Positions 4,277 through 60,253 of a stretch of DNA of 64,000 bases are shown in pieces (within the stretch, counting starts at the first letter, position 1; each line of letters begins with the position of its first letter). The position numbers and the translations under genes were made by a program. Where the stretch lies: contig JACRIM010000041.1 of assembly GCA_016235815.1 (NCBI GenBank), positions 62,001 to 126,000 of the forward strand, in the 5' to 3' direction. Origin of the DNA: Planctomycetota bacterium. Its GTDB lineage: Bacteria; Planctomycetota; Phycisphaerae; UBA1845; UTPLA1. The notes beneath the pieces were generated by a model. The model worked only from the letters and a program-made list of their open reading frames with translations. It did no database searches and was not told where the DNA came from.

Positions 4277-6478
4277 ATGAACTACGACTCGCTACTGACG
4301 CTCGCAAAAGCCAAAAACTGGGCCGATCTTGAAAAGCAATGGATGTCGGCCGTGGAACAGCCGGATGCGAACCCGGGGCACCTGCTCCCCGTGATCGACA
4401 CACTGGTGAAGGCGGGGAATGCCCCATTAGCCGACACCCTGGGCTGGGCCTGGCTGGCACAACTCAAGGAAAACCGCGCGGCGACCGAGGCCCTCGGCGT
4501 CGGCCGGGAACTTCTGGTTCACCTGACCGACGGCGACCAACTTCGCGAAGAGATTCTGGAGCTTTATAAAAAAACGCACACCGATCGGGCCGATCTGGAT
4601 TCGTGGATTGAGCGTTCGGGATTGAAGGCGGGGAAGTCGGTTCGACGGGCCCTTCGATTCCTCGACGTGGGGTTGGAATTGAAACAAGGCGCCTGCCTCG
4701 TGCATCGCACCGAGGACGTGGCCGCCCAAATCGTGGAAATGGACCTCACCACGGATGAGATCGTGGTCAAGCAGGGTCGCCGCGAGCAGACCTATACGCT
4801 GGCCAAACTGGTCGACGAATTTGACGTTGCGGACCAGAACGATTTCCGTGTGCTGCAACAGTTGAATCCGGCGCGAATATCACAGTTGGCCACGGACGAC
4901 CCCGTGACCCTGGCCATCGGCATTCTCAGCGGCCATCAGAACAAGATGATTCGCGAGAACATCAAGCTACTGCTGTGCCCGCGGTACATTCCAACGGAAA
5001 AATGGGCGGACTGGTGGACCAAGCTCCGCGGCGAACTAAAAAAATCGCCCAACCTGCGGATTGAAGGGCGTTCGCCGGTGTTTCTTATTTACGATCCGGT
5101 GGGGCAGTCGCTGGAGCAGGAATCGTGGGGCGCTTTCTCCAAGGCGACGACACCGCGCGAGTGGCTGGAGATTCTCGAAACCTACCTCCGCGACACCAAG
5201 ACCCAGAAGAAAGAGCCGGATACGACGTATTTGAATCGTGTTCAAAAAACCCTTGTCGACTCGCTGAATCGCTTTATCAAACACAAGGAACCGGCCCAGG
5301 CCTTTGCCACGGCGCTGGTCATTGAACGCGTGGGCGCCGATGGATTGCCCGTTTCGACCGACGCACACGGCATGGCATTAAAAATGCTCGGTGAATCCAA
5401 AGACCCGGTGCCGATGGTGGCCCAGATTCCGGATATTCGTTTGTGGTCGCTGGCCATCGCCTGCGTCGAGCAGGCGTTTCCGCAGAATTGGGCTGAGCAT
5501 CTGGCCAAGCTCATTCTCCATGCGCCGGCCAGTCAGTGCGACGCCCTCGCAAAAAGGGTTGAAAAGGCCGGCCGCGGCGACTTGTTGCCTCTGATCGCAC
5601 GGGAGGCCATGGATGATGGCGGTCGCTACACCGACGCGCTGATGTGGCTCTGGCGGGGACCTGACTGCGAAACGGATTTGCAGCTTCCGGGGCAGATTGA
5701 ATTGTTCAATGTGATCATGACCCTGGTCGGCCCGGCACGAGCGTCGACGGGCAAGGCGGCAGGACACTCGGTTAACGAGATGCGAGCCAAGGTCCGAACC
5801 GGCCTTGCGCACAAGGACTACGCCCGATTCCGCGAGTGCATTAACGGCCTTGAAGACTCGATGGCGCAGACGATTCGACGGCTTGTGGAACGTGCGGATG
5901 GTCTCGGCCCCAGTTTGCAGGAAGACATGAACTGGATCCTGCGAAACAAGTTCCCGCACCTTTACGCGCGGGCCAAGGTGGCGCTGTGGGACGACGACTC
6001 GGTGCTCTACTTCACGTCGGCGGGTCTCAAGACCAAGGAGGACGAACTCGCTGAAATCGTGAACGTGAAGATGCGCGAGAATGCCAAGGCCATCGGCGAG
6101 GCAGCCGCTCACGGCGACCTCAGCGAAAACTCGGAGTACAAATTCGCACTCGAGGAGCGCGATCTGCTTCGGGCGCGCGTGGCGAAATTAAACCGCGAAA
6201 TTTCCATGGCAAAGATCCTGGAGAGTCACGAGATTCCATCGGACTACGTGAGCATCGGTCACCGCGTCGTCATCAAACCGGTTGTCGGCGGGGCATCGGT
6301 TCCGATTACGATTCTCGGGTACGACGAATCCGACCTGGCGAATCATGTGTATTCGTATCACAGCCCGTTCGCCCGATCGCTCCTTGGCAAGAAGCCGGGG
6401 GAAAAGGTCACCGTGGCGCTCGACGAGGCCTCTCCGGCCGAATTCACGATTGAAGACGTGGCTCCGGCAGTTTCGTAA
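4277..6478 (+). CDS. greA: long GreA/GreB-type transcription elongation factor with a large N-terminal domain
   Basis: The last 140 residues of this 733-residue protein are a full Gre factor. A coiled coil carries the tip motif GDLSENSEY (residues 613-621), whose acidic residues enter the RNA polymerase secondary channel and stimulate transcript cleavage, and an FKBP-like C-terminal domain runs from about 655 to 728. The first 590 residues are mostly helical, with TPR/HEAT-like periodicity and Trp-rich spots, and match no domain I can name. Bacterial GreA is usually about 160 residues. From memory, the chlamydial GreA is also about 715 residues, so this may be a PVC-superphylum form. Nothing upstream suggests an operon. 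The CDS begins with ATG at 4277. Confidence 0.85.
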   Translation: MNYDSLLTLAKAKNWADLEKQWMSAVEQPDANPGHLLPVIDTLVKAGNAPLADTLGWAWLAQLKENRAATEALGVGRELLVHLTDGDQLREEILELYKKTHTDRADLDSWIERSGLKAGKSVRRALRFLDVGLELKQGACLVHRTEDVAAQIVEMDLTTDEIVVKQGRREQTYTLAKLVDEFDVADQNDFRVLQQLNPARISQLATDDPVTLAIGILSGHQNKMIRENIKLLLCPRYIPTEKWADWWTKLRGELKKSPNLRIEGRSPVFLIYDPVGQSLEQESWGAFSKATTPREWLEILETYLRDTKTQKKEPDTTYLNRVQKTLVDSLNRFIKHKEPAQAFATALVIERVGADGLPVSTDAHGMALKMLGESKDPVPMVAQIPDIRLWSLAIACVEQAFPQNWAEHLAKLILHAPASQCDALAKRVEKAGRGDLLPLIAREAMDDGGRYTDALMWLWRGPDCETDLQLPGQIELFNVIMTLVGPARASTGKAAGHSVNEMRAKVRTGLAHKDYARFRECINGLEDSMAQTIRRLVERADGLGPSLQEDMNWILRNKFPHLYARAKVALWDDDSVLYFTSAGLKTKEDELAEIVNVKMRENAKAIGEAAAHGDLSENSEYKFALEERDLLRARVAKLNREISMAKILESHEIPSDYVSIGHRVVIKPVVGGASVPITILGYDESDLANHVYSYHSPFARSLLGKKPGEKVTVALDEASPAEFTIEDVAPAVS

Positions 6479-25030: not shown

Positions 25031-26203
25031 TTACGGCGCGACCGCAGCCCCAAGGAACTCTTCCATCACACGATTCGACACCAACAAACCGCGTCGCGTC
25101 AGCCGAAACCCTCGAGCGTCGCGTCGCGCCAGCCCTAGGCTCTCGAAATAATCCATTTTCGATGAAAACACTTTCGCAGCATCCGCACCGGTGAGCGAAG
25201 CGAAGCGTCTAAAGTCAATTCCATCCGTCAGCCGCAGCATCTGAATCGCCGTCTCGCCAAGGCGCCGCGTATCATCCAGCCGCTCCTCCTCCAACACAAT
25301 CGACTCCGTCCCGCGCAACATGCCATCGACGTATCGCCGCACGTCCGCGATGTTCTTTCTCCGCAGACCATCAAGATACGACACCGCCGACGGACCAACA
25401 CCGAGATACTCGCGATTCTCCCAGTAGAGCATGTTCGCCGCGCAGCGACGCCCGGGCCGCGCGAAGTTACTGATCTCATAATGCTCAAAACCGGCGCCGG
25501 TCAACTCGTCAATCGTCGCCTCGAACATGTCCGCTTCGATGTTCTCATCACACGCCGCAATCCGTCCCTGCACGCGCAACTTCGTCAGCGACGTTCCCGG
25601 CTCATACATCAGCGCATAACACGACAGATGCTCCGTGCCGACGTCGATCGCCTTCCGAAGCGTCTCTCGCCATGCACCCAACGTCTGCCCCGGAATGCCA
25701 TAGATCAAATCCAGATTGATGTTGTCGAATCCCGCACGCCGTGCCGCCGCGATGGATTCGAAGATATGCACGGGGTCGTGAATCCGTTCCAGAATGCGCA
25801 GCTCTTCCTCTCGAAACGACTGCGCCCCGAACGACACCCGATTCACGCCGCAGCGCCGAAGCAACTCCAGCTTCAACTCGTCCGTGCTGGACGGGTTCGC
25901 CTCGACCGTGGACTCCCCCACCGCCCCGGTATGCCCGCCGATACCCCGGAGAATCGCCTCCAATGCCGCAGCCGGGAGCACCGTCGGCGTCCCGCCCCCG
26001 ACGAAAATCGTCTCCACCGGCCGCCGCGGATCGCGCTCGTCCATCTCTCGTGCCAACGCCCGAACCAGATCATCCACCAGATGCGGCAGCGTCGGCAGCG
26101 AATAGAAATCGCAGTACCCGCACTTGGTCGTGCAAAACGGCAGGTGCACATACCACCCGACCCCCGCCCGGATTTCACTCGTCGCCGCCTCGCGTGTTCC
26201 CAT
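25031..26203 (-). CDS. hemW: HemW-like radical SAM protein
   Basis: The 390-residue protein has the radical-SAM cluster motif CTTKCGYCDF (Cys 24, 28, 31), the SAM-binding FVGGGTPT, VEANPSS, RVSFGAQSF and YGIPGQT, and the C-terminal HemN-type domain (ARPGRRCAANMLYWENREYLGVGPSAVSY). It lacks the N-terminal extra residues and extra Cys of true coproporphyrinogen oxidase HemN. By family knowledge HemW is a heme-binding chaperone that hands heme to target proteins. A run of 8-9-bp repeats lies just upstream of its start. Confidence 0.9.
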   Translation of the reverse strand: MGTREAATSEIRAGVGWYVHLPFCTTKCGYCDFYSLPTLPHLVDDLVRALAREMDERDPRRPVETIFVGGGTPTVLPAAALEAILRGIGGHTGAVGESTVEANPSSTDELKLELLRRCGVNRVSFGAQSFREEELRILERIHDPVHIFESIAAARRAGFDNINLDLIYGIPGQTLGAWRETLRKAIDVGTEHLSCYALMYEPGTSLTKLRVQGRIAACDENIEADMFEATIDELTGAGFEHYEISNFARPGRRCAANMLYWENREYLGVGPSAVSYLDGLRRKNIADVRRYVDGMLRGTESIVLEEERLDDTRRLGETAIQMLRLTDGIDFRRFASLTGADAAKVFSSKMDYFESLGLARRDARGFRLTRRGLLVSNRVMEEFLGAAVAP

Positions 26204-26236
26204 AATGCGATTCTACTGCTGTTGCCCTTCGTCCCC

Positions 26237-26302
26237 TCGAACCATCGAACCCTTGAACCATCGAACCCTTGGACCCTTGAACCCTTGAACCCCTGAACCC
26301 TC
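26237..26302. repeat. short tandem repeat (GAACC(A/C)(C)TT units)
   Basis: About eight head-to-tail units of 7-9 bp of the kind TCGAACCAT / GAACCCTT fill the gap between hemW and the FHA gene. It carries no frame of interest. Such low-complexity runs may be slippage products. Confidence 0.75.
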
Positions 26303-27470: not shown

Positions 27471-28691
27471 TCACCGCGCTGCGCGCTGCCGAACCGCCTC
27501 ATAGAAAAACAACGCCGCCGTGATCGACACGTTCAGGCTGTCGCCAATCCCGCGCATCGGAATCCGCGCTGCGATTACATCCGACCCTGTCCACGCCCTC
27601 GACAGCCCGCGATCCTCCGCCCCAAACACAAACGCCGTCGGCCCGCGATAGTCGATCGTGGTGAAATCGGCCCCACCCTCCGGCGTCGCGGCGACAACCT
27701 GAAACCGCCGTTCCTTCAAATACGCCATCGCCTCCGCCGCACTAACCTCCACCACCGGAATCCGAAACACCGTCGCCACGCTCGCACGAATCACGTTCGG
27801 GCCATACACATCGATCGCACTATCCACCGCCAGAACCGCTTCTACGCCCGCGCCATCCGCACTCCGCAGAATCGCCCCAAGGTTTCCCGGCTTGCCCACC
27901 TGCTCGACCACGGCGATCAGCGGCGCTGTGGCACCGGTTTCCAACCGGTCGACCCGTGTGGCACCGGTTTCCAACCGGTCGCCCCGTGTGGCACCGGTTT
28001 CCAACCGGTCGCCCCGTGTGGCACCGGTTTCCAACCGGTCGTCCCGTGTGGCACCGGTTTCCAACCGGTCGCCCCGTGTGGCACCGGTTTCCAACCGGTC
28101 GCCCCGTGTGGCACCGGTTTCCAACCGGTCGACCCGTGTGGCACCAGTTTCCAACCGGTCGTCCCGTGTGGCACCGGTTTCCAACCGGTCGCCCCGTGTG
28201 GCACCGGTTTCCAACCGGTCGCCCCGTGTGGCACCGGTTTCCAACCGGTCGCCCCGTGTGGCACCGGTTTCCAACCGGTCGCCCCGTGTGGCACCGGTTT
28301 CCAACCGGTGACTCGCCAGATCCGCCAGTGTTTTTGAAGGCCGCTCCGCCACGGCCACAAGTCCACCCGTGCGATCCCCATAGCGAAACTTCTCGAACAC
28401 ATGCTCGGGCACATCGATAATCCGAGTGCCGTGCGACGATAGCTCCCCCGCCACCGCATCCACTTCTTCACCCGCGAGAAGCGCCCGACACACGTAAAGC
28501 TCACCAATCGCCAGGCCCGCCTGCGCCGCGCGGGTAATCTCGCGCAGGCCGTCAATGAGAATCCGCGGGTCATCGGCCGACGAGCCTTTTCGCCGCAGCG
28601 AGGCAAGCGCCTTGATACGGGGGTTCGCAGCGCTGGTGATGGATTCGATGCGTTGACTCATGTCATGCACTGCCTGGTTGCCCACCATCAT
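27471..28691 (-). CDS. TrmH/SpoU-type RNA 2'-O-methyltransferase interrupted by an in-frame 30-bp repeat array
   Basis: SpoU enzymes methylate ribose 2'-OH in rRNA or tRNA with SAM, using a knotted C-terminal domain. The N-terminal substrate-binding part is intact (IESITSAANPRIKALASLRRK, residues 15-35, through DRTGGLVAVAE). The SPOUT domain from about residue 256 has all three motifs: GNLGAILRSADGAGVEAV, AFVFGAEDRGLS and IPMRGIGDSLNVSITAALFFYEAV. Between them, residues 128-254 are about 12.6 copies of a ten-residue unit DRLETGATRG. The frame is kept through the array. Either of the first two Met codons (28691, 28688) could be used; GGAG lies 3 or 6 nt upstream. Confidence 0.85.
   Translation of the reverse strand: MMVGNQAVHDMSQRIESITSAANPRIKALASLRRKGSSADDPRILIDGLREITRAAQAGLAIGELYVCRALLAGEEVDAVAGELSSHGTRIIDVPEHVFEKFRYGDRTGGLVAVAERPSKTLADLASHRLETGATRGDRLETGATRGDRLETGATRGDRLETGATRGDRLETGATRDDRLETGATRVDRLETGATRGDRLETGATRGDRLETGATRDDRLETGATRGDRLETGATRGDRLETGATRVDRLETGATAPLIAVVEQVGKPGNLGAILRSADGAGVEAVLAVDSAIDVYGPNVIRASVATVFRIPVVEVSAAEAMAYLKERRFQVVAATPEGGADFTTIDYRGPTAFVFGAEDRGLSRAWTGSDVIAARIPMRGIGDSLNVSITAALFFYEAVRQRAAR
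27931..28309. repeat. 30-bp tandem palindromic repeat array, 13 cores, inside the TrmH-like gene
   Basis: Thirteen copies of a 19-nt core (gcaccggtttccaaccggt) recur every 30 nt, joined by 11-nt links that vary at one or two bases (cgacccgtgtg, cgccccgtgtg, cgtcccgtgtg). Copy 8 has one substitution (gcaccagttt). The core contains an inverted repeat, accggtt-tcc-aaccggt, so each unit can fold into a hairpin. The spacing is a multiple of three, which keeps the host gene open. Confidence 0.95.
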
Positions 28692-58012: not shown

Positions 58013-60253
58013 ATGAAGCTGGTCCATTTTGCAACAACGGTATGCTTGTTTCTGGCATTGGGGAATGTGCCGTCCTTTGGCGACGACCATGGGAACACCT
58101 GTGGGACCGCCACGGCGATTACCACGGACGGAACTCCGGTAAGCGTCATTGTCGATCCATCGACCGACGTGGACTGGCTCAGCTTCACCGCGGTCGCGGG
58201 GCATCGATACGAGGCAACGACGTTCACGCCGTCGGCCAGTTTCTATTATGAGGCAGAGGTGATCGGGCCGGATTGCAGCACGGTCATCGCCAACTGGGGC
58301 TACGGAAGCCCCGATGAGATCGGTGTCATCACCGCGGCATCGGGAACGCACTACCTGCGATTTGCCTCCATTTCCAATTCGACGGTCGGGTACATCGGCG
58401 TTGGGCTTACGGATCGCGGGGCAACCAGTGACGACCATAGCGGCGGCCGCGCCGATGCGACGGCGATCACGCCGAACGGGACGACCTATGCCGGAACAAC
58501 CAATTACGTCGGCGACATCGATTGGCTGACGTTCACCGGTGTTGCGGAACATCTTTACCAGTTGGAATTGCGGGCCGTGCCGGGTCTGGCATTGTTTGGT
58601 GTTGCCGGAGAGCTTTATTCGACCGGCGGAGGTGTCGGGTCGACCGCGTGGTCGTTCGCCAGCCCGGGCGGTCCTGCAGGTGAATGGGTAACGGTCAACT
58701 ACTTTGTTCCGCCTGCGATGAGCGGCGCGTATCGTGTGCGGCTCGGTGCCTATCCCGGACTAACGGGAGACTACGAAGTTCGCGTGACGGATCTCGGCAC
58801 ATTCGGAGCCGATGAGCATGGCAACACATGCGGCACGGCAACTGCCATTGCCACGGATGGAACCGTCACGTCGATCGTGATCAACCCGATGGCCGATGAA
58901 GATTGGCTGAGCCTGAGCGGAGTCGCCGGGCATCGATACGAGCTTACGACGTTCGCATCGTCGGGGCAGTTCTATTCGGTGGTGCAGTTGTACGACGCGG
59001 ACTGTACGACGCTGCGTCGCGAATGGGCTCCGAACAACCAGGCTGAGCCGGGCTTCTTTACCCCCGCAACCGACACTTACTATTTGCGGGTCACATCTTC
59101 AGGGGCATCGTATGTCGGCCAATTGGCGCTGGGCGTGACCGATCGTGGCGTACAAGCGGACGATCACAGCGGTTATCAGCCCGACGCGACGCTCGCACCT
59201 TCCGATGGCACCGTCCAAAACGGCACCATCCATTACCCCGGCGATTTCGACTACTTCAAGTTTAACGCCACCGCGAACCACTCCTACAGCGTGCAGGTGC
59301 GTGCGTTGGCCGATACCGACCCGTGGTCGGTCAGCCTCTATCTGTTTGAAGGGCCTTACAACCTTGGGTACTCGGGCCTTTCCTACGGCGGTCCCGGTGG
59401 ACCGGGCGCATGGACCGGTGTGGTGTATGGCGTGCCGCCGGGTCCGAATCCGACGCTCCATGTGATGGTGTATGCCGGGCAGACCTACTTCGGCGCGTCA
59501 TACGAAGTGACGATCACTGATTTAGGCGTGACGCCGCCCGATGACCACGCTGACGACTTTGTGTCCGCGACGCTGATCCCCACCGATGGGACGCCGACAG
59601 CCGGTTTGATTGGCTACACCGGCGACTTGGACTATTTCCGATTCACACTCACGGCCCAACGCGTCTATGCCATCGAAGTGAAGGGGCTCGACAGTCCTGA
59701 CACCGGCCTTTTGGGCGCTTCGCTCTTTGGCCTCGACGGAACGACCCAGTTGGGATTCACCGGTTGGTCTTACGCAGGCCCGGGCGTCGACGGCGATTGG
59801 GTGCGCGTGCTTTATTATGTGCCCGCCGGCGAGGCCGGAACGTATTACGCGTCGGCGCTGGGCTATGACTTTGTCCCGGGGTCCTATGAGATTCGCGTCA
59901 TTGTCGGGCAAGGCCAGCCGGGCGACTTTGACGGCGACGGCATTCCGGATGGGACGGACAACTGCCCGACCGTGCCGAACCCCGATCAGGCCGACACCGA
60001 TGGCGACGGCATCGGCGACTGCTGCGACTCCGATGCGCCGGATCAGGATGGCGACGGCATCGCCAATTCCTGCGACAACTGTCCCGCGGTCTACAACGCG
60101 GACCAGGCTGACACGGATGCAGACGGCATCGGCGACGCCTGCGAAAACACGCCAACATGCTGCAAGGGTGATATGAACAACGACGGACAACTCAATGCAC
60201 TGGACATTCAGGGGTTCGTTGATGCGTTGATCAATGGGCAGACCTGTCCGTAA
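58013..60253 (+). CDS. secreted protein with five PPC-like repeats, thrombospondin type-3-like repeats and a dockerin-like end
   Basis: The 746-residue protein has a signal peptide (residues 1-22) and five repeats of about 120 residues (about 22-138, 139-264, 265-381, 382-508, 509-638). Each starts with a D(D/E)H motif, a ....DGT stretch and D.DW(L/F).(F/L), the pattern of PPC domains. Calcium-binding DxDxDGxxD repeats follow (639-715; [27 protein letters not shown]), then a short dockerin-like end ([13 protein letters not shown]). GGAG lies 6 nt before the ATG. It is likely exported and bound to the surface or a matrix. Confidence 0.85.

Follow-up and report, generated by a model that had tools for sequence, protein, structure and literature searches.

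A GT[AG]G-foot REP element appears to have entered a SpoU/TrmH-type methyltransferase gene at the linker between its two domains and then to have been amplified head to tail, while the family to which it belongs appears to have been spread by a cognate RAYT, a Y1 HUH transposase, encoded within purH. We put the probability of this reading at roughly 0.8; no transposition, expression or protein data stand behind it. The gene lies within the window, the 64,000-nt stretch of a planctomycete contig that was analysed, and the coordinates of its features are collected in Table 1.

Table 1. Features of the methyltransferase gene and its REP array (positions within the window)
Feature	Position	Strand	Basis
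SpoU/TrmH-type (MRM3-like) RNA 2'-O-methyltransferase gene, array host, 406 aa	27471..28691	-	ORF, Pfam, ortholog alignment
Substrate-binding domain MRM3-like_sub_bind, aa 23-113	28353..28625	-	Pfam PF22435, E 5e-10
SPOUT catalytic domain SpoU_methylase, aa 258-397, motifs intact, aligned to 12 orthologs	27501..27920	-	Pfam PF00588, E 2.4e-31
Inserted segment aa 127-254, missing in 12 same-family orthologs	27930..28313	-	Ortholog matches and alignment
REP array, 13 head-to-tail 30-bp units	27927..28309	.	TRF, core positions, six-frame stops, fold
Single variant core, with a G-to-A change at 28146 that is silent in the methyltransferase frame	28138..28167	.	Unit comparison

The array is by far the strongest repeat that TRF detects in the window, a single run with a period of 30, 12.8 copies, 97% matches and zero indels. 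Each unit consists of a GTGG foot, the hairpin CACCGGTT-TCC-AACCGGT(G/C) and a spacer. The sequence-only reading had described thirteen hairpin cores at 30-nt spacing, and this is what we find: core starts fall at 27932+30n (n = 0 to 12), with 12 cores identical and the one at 28142 carrying a single mismatch. It had also placed the array between the substrate-binding and SPOUT domains with both in frame and all SPOUT motifs kept. Pfam and the ortholog alignment bear this out, the units being read as DRLETGATRG, a hydrophilic peptide in the translated ORF. Five differences separate the units internally, four of them on one spacer base, each changing the amino acid (Gly/Val/Asp), and the fifth synonymous; the hairpin is the nearly invariant part. 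An inverted-repeat scan across the array returned none at its length threshold. A CRISPR array was rejected, as its spacers would be unique, whereas those between the cores hardly differ from unit to unit.

All six reading frames are open across the array, as they are in none of 1273 other 382-nt stretches of the window (50-nt steps) and in about 31% of shuffled 30-mers placed in tandem. Six-frame openness alone is a modest property of the array. Three features would have let the gene tolerate the array: a hairpin that is stop-free in six frames, a unit of 30 bp, divisible by three, and a position in a flexible linker. Because the assembly is a 60-contig draft and the array exceeds short-read length, the exact copy number may be off. 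These same circumstances would allow the whole array to be an assembly artefact, but its flanks are continuous, unit variants are interspersed along it, and the PurH of two single-contig genomes (G002 and G013) has similar array-bearing insertions in frame, so we give an artefact hardly any weight.

Elsewhere in the window, a degenerate 8-bp repeat (CCCTTGAA-like, 8.5 copies) at 26234-26301 represents a second repeat type, just upstream of a minus-strand HemN/HemW-like gene (25031-26203). A 48-bp tandem repeat in 2 copies at 59982-60076 is an ordinary protein repeat within a thrombospondin type 3 repeat protein. A 733-aa frame at 4277-6478 ends in a C-terminal GreA/GreB transcription elongation factor domain and has a long N-terminal part without a Pfam match; Ser/Thr kinase-TPR, WD40 and dockerin proteins are also encoded, which together with the REP/class 3 biology would suit a planctomycete.

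The orthologs that the sequence-only reading had proposed as a check all lack the insert (12 of 12 from the same family). Their matches stop at query residue 124-126 and restart at 249-257, and no ortholog residue aligns opposite the array. The insert therefore arose in the lineage of this genome, with the frame kept. An ancient protein linker is rejected, the repeat being a mobile-element array. What that reading had called a dispersed hairpin repeat expanded in frame within a linker is thus upheld by the orthologs and by copies elsewhere in the genome, while its description of the host as an essential-type gene has no support. TrmH/RlmB-type methyltransferases are dispensable in E. coli.

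A count of the core over the whole genome, following a further check proposed from the sequence alone, gave 50 exact copies of the 15-nt CCGGTTTCCAACCGG in 4.58 Mb and 0 for a reversed control, so the array core is not a chance sequence; BLAST of the genome located the REP family at 45 places. REPs have been searched for as hairpins (stem of 7-20 nt, loop of 2-5 nt) preceded by GTAG or GTGG at a distance of 0-2 nt (PMC6006769), and the GT(A/G)G head is given also in PMC2817692. GTGG precedes the window core, and GTAG precedes the second hairpin of the PurH element described below. The 8-bp stem (CACCGGTT/AACCGGTG) and 3-nt TCC loop fall within the stem and loop ranges, the array unit is predicted to fold as single-stranded DNA at -9.5 kcal/mol (z -3.5), and the many dispersed copies per genome expected of REPs are present. 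Judged by its sequence, the array core is a canonical GT[AG]G REP element; that a RAYT cleaves or moves it is inferred, without biochemistry.

Some copies stand alone, others form A+B pairs spaced by 26-27 bp, and others again make up direct arrays of periods such as 27, 28, 30, 35 and 57 bp. At most REP loci outside host genes no spanning ORF has a good coding score (genes were not rigorously called). About ten other genes carry REPs of the same family in frame, several with domains still recognisable; among them are two glycosyltransferases, a Ser/Thr kinase, a Rieske oxygenase, RtcB (four units) and MetH, and probably also a TPR protein and a PMT-like protein. The host proteins read the REP in at least four frames (HRLETGAT, GTGFQPV, VAPVSNR and WHRFSTG). 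The GTGFQPV reading had been attributed to the other strand of the array; it is correct on the plus strand, REPs in further genes of this genome encode the same peptide, and a literature search found no paper on it. The kinase gene (L036:2-2500, minus strand, contig C21 of this genome, labelled G000) holds several in-frame REP peptides of two families in its kinase domain region, the HRSETGAT / GTGFQPV family and the NPLPDGRGSE family. On another contig (L032/L033, C38:4420-24530), five REP loci lie within about 20 kb with the main REP on the same strand, which suggests polarity or local spread.

These frames bear on whether the peptide repeat was selected as a protein linker or binding module, the DNA palindrome being incidental. 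Such selection would be consistent with an array that stays in frame and encodes a hydrophilic peptide, but not with REPs read in different frames in different genes, with a nearly invariant hairpin beside spacer variants that are all nonsynonymous, or with orthologs that do without the array. Because all four spacer differences alter the amino acid, the units seem to be kept as DNA rather than as protein. The array looks like amplified DNA and not a selected peptide, an origin that we consider very improbable.

We find a candidate source of the family in purH. A Y1_Tnp match at C21:82466 (L037) is flanked on both sides by inverted REP pairs of the array family, at 1738/1764 (+) and 2309/2336 (-) of that locus, the arrangement expected around a RAYT. 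This REP-RAYT-REP unit forms an uninterrupted stretch of a 793-aa purH frame (Pfam MGS, AICARFT_IMPCHas and Y1_Tnp), and this is the only PurH found in the genome. At 8 other RAYT loci fetched from the genome there are no array-family REPs nearby, save one weak degenerate match in L015; one RAYT (C29:132326) was left out of the flank scan, and no REP match lies near it on that contig. As the only RAYT found flanked by the array REP family sits in frame in the sole purH, PurH synthesis most likely yields this RAYT within the same protein. It is probably the transposase cognate to the array family, a match for which there are no binding or cleavage data, and we infer that it would act on REPs in trans. 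Both chimeric proteins, by inference, would be translated whole and functional; internal translation starts giving a separate RAYT are not excluded.

A second RAYT, of class 3 type (NHVH, Y....Q; cf. PMC6006769), lies in frame in the only alaS found (1069-aa AlaS query), between 29-nt perfect inverted repeats that begin with CCGA and so fit the CnGA foot of class 3. Neither embedded RAYT is the stand-alone ORF of about 150-325 aa by which RAYTs are otherwise defined; Y1_Tnp frames in the order typically span 150-230 aa.

The flanking and dispersed copies also weigh on an ordinary VNTR, in which replication slippage alone, without a mobile element, would have expanded a short sequence in a permissive linker. 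The units are head to tail and nearly identical, and slippage may well account for their tandem growth, which we infer to have proceeded either in that manner or by rolling-circle-like copying. Yet the core is found at dozens of unrelated places, singly or in arrays of other periods, it flanks a transposase in inverted orientation, and the array is missing from orthologs. The dispersed copies rule out a VNTR as the complete explanation and leave it a place only as an amplification step; as a rival to the REP reading we regard it as unlikely.

Across 114 genomes of the order, REP abundance tracks the PurH-embedded RAYT. REP-rich genomes, those with at least 10 exact REPs, made up 9 of the 14 that carry the main PurH-RAYT clade but only 4 of the 100 that lack it (p 1.8e-7); the figures before two broken purH genes were added were 7/12 and 6/102 (p 2.6e-5). 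This p-value is optimistic, because the genomes are related and no tree correction was applied. RAYTs embedded in IleS and AlaS showed no link to REP abundance (p 0.72 and 0.32), and four REP-rich genomes (G046, G083, G031 and G085) have no PurH-embedded RAYT.

The recurrence of in-frame RAYTs was surveyed in the same 114 genomes, with a separate phylum-wide sample of 392. PurH carries one in 24 of the 114, always at one position, which lies between LCAELTRA and the KHTNACG motif: 15 carriers are of type r1, two more have a contig-broken purH (G070 and G104), and 7 are of the class-3-like type r2. Two transposase types at one PurH site imply at least two independent entries. In AlaS a common site is occupied in 8 genomes and a second one in 2; in IleS the two sites are occupied in 7 and 3 genomes. 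GcvP is a host in 2 genomes, a RarA-like AAA protein in 1, and LeuS and a DNA methyltransferase in 1 genome each, these last two hosts being read from sequence. Further hosts in the 392-genome sample, likewise identified without Pfam, are ValS (two genomes, from other families of the class), LeuS, an Eco57I-like enzyme and a third site in AlaS. As some carriers are single-contig genomes (G002 and G013), the recurrence is not an assembly effect.

RAYT matches are present at both IleS sites of one locus (L134, G068 C212), the second of them split over two frames and possibly decaying or misassembled. At another locus (L194, G104 C20), a class-3-like RAYT and a long array of SPGIHAGSSAPGDPRA-type repeats come before a MutS-like N-terminus and share its frame. 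In-frame RAYTs at L118 (G029 C27), L128 (G012 C29) and L132 (G035 C10) stand beside long tandem peptide arrays of the same kind as the window array (GSIGVPPVPSAQSP, EGRGSS and DHRRDACATSGEEG).

The embedded RAYTs are maintained. The HUH motif ([DE]H[VAI]H) and the tyrosine are present in 28 of 28 r1 rows, and an NHVH-like motif with the tyrosine in the class-3-like rows except L153 (DRVH). Host frames were open in 47 of 47 cases, partly by construction, since frames had been chosen stop-free; frame integrity was therefore judged from unselected search matches. In genome searches that read through and counted stops, matches running from host to RAYT in one piece contained zero, and the five other frames of the RAYT stretch were open in only 0-28% of cases. 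For the best-testable, same-genus pair (G002 and G013), dN/dS was 0.13 for the RAYT against 0.115 for the host part, ratios that show purifying selection on an embedded RAYT which occupies one and the same PurH site in both of these related genomes.

The r1 RAYT tree groups by host gene and not by genome (6 changes against a shuffled mean of 13.9, with 0 of 200 shuffles as low), and G019 has its three RAYTs in three separate parts of the tree. The PurH-RAYT of the window's genome pairs with that of G019, which belongs to a different family (98/95), and constraining the f4-family PurH-RAYTs to a single clade was rejected (p-AU 0.008). On the host PurH tree the insert state requires at least 13 changes; this tree is quick, with long branches and some badly trimmed rows (e.g. 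L144), and only its qualitative message is used. On these phylogenies the data favour repeated gain, loss or lateral movement of the PurH insert, and homing is not proven.

Fixed sites in conserved enzymes, recurrently occupied and patchy among relatives, resemble those of inteins, and the in-frame RAYTs might be removed after synthesis in an intein-like manner, or bypassed at the RNA level if the flanking inverted REP pairs formed hairpins in the mRNA. Intein identity was rejected by Pfam, which detects only Y1_Tnp and low-complexity linkers between the host domains and no Hint splicing domain, and two RAYT types share one PurH site. Moreover, insertions like the SpoU array lack any processing element, and in the matches that run through the RAYT the host frame is stop-free, which bypass would not need. 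We consider removal or bypass quite unlikely relative to RAYTs retained within the host proteins.

In-frame insertions of short GT[AG]G-tagged palindromes have been described in genes, those of tRNA synthetases among them, and linkers are where they are probably tolerated (PMC3733652, Di Nocera 2013). The stretches encoded there are mostly 20-30 aa and 43-82 aa at most, whereas the window array is longer, at about 127 aa in 13 units, and here the transposase too lies in frame in host genes. With known RAYTs, or TnpA_REP, and REPtrons (PMC2817692, PMC8266576, PMC6006769) our elements share a Y1 HUH transposase with one tyrosine, inverted REP flanks and the co-variation of REP and RAYT types; they differ in that the RAYT is an internal in-frame segment of PurH, AlaS, IleS, GcvP and others and not a stand-alone gene. 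REPs inside tnpA_REP genes have been described, and unexpectedly long TnpA proteins were discarded as gene fusions or annotation errors (PMC6006769), a warning that proteins such as these have been filtered from at least one published survey. Rickettsia palindromic elements (RPE) similarly lie in frame in many unrelated genes, but RPE-1 is a longer palindromic insertion (PMC3733652). In the literature we found no report of an embedded transposase for RPE. Nor did the literature searched, which did not extend to subscription papers and preprints, contain a report of RAYTs as in-frame internal domains of essential or housekeeping enzymes.

Transposases are expected to break the genes that they enter. 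The class described here is kept under purifying selection inside enzymes that the cell requires, and in at least two cases the host gene is the sole copy. A broader proposition, on which we are evenly divided, is that several RAYT lineages have become permanent in-frame segments of essential enzymes (PurH, AlaS, IleS, LeuS, ValS and GcvP), with a fixed site per lineage, intein-like moves between lineages without splicing, and expression with the host enzyme, and that they drive REPs elsewhere, including in-frame arrays like that of the window. The upkeep of a transposase class inside needed enzymes would explain the persistence of single-copy RAYTs, as expression would be constant and loss would require an in-frame deletion, and would tie the spread of REPs to housekeeping expression. 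The embedded RAYTs would also offer examples from nature of sites where PurH and the tRNA synthetases tolerate large insertions.
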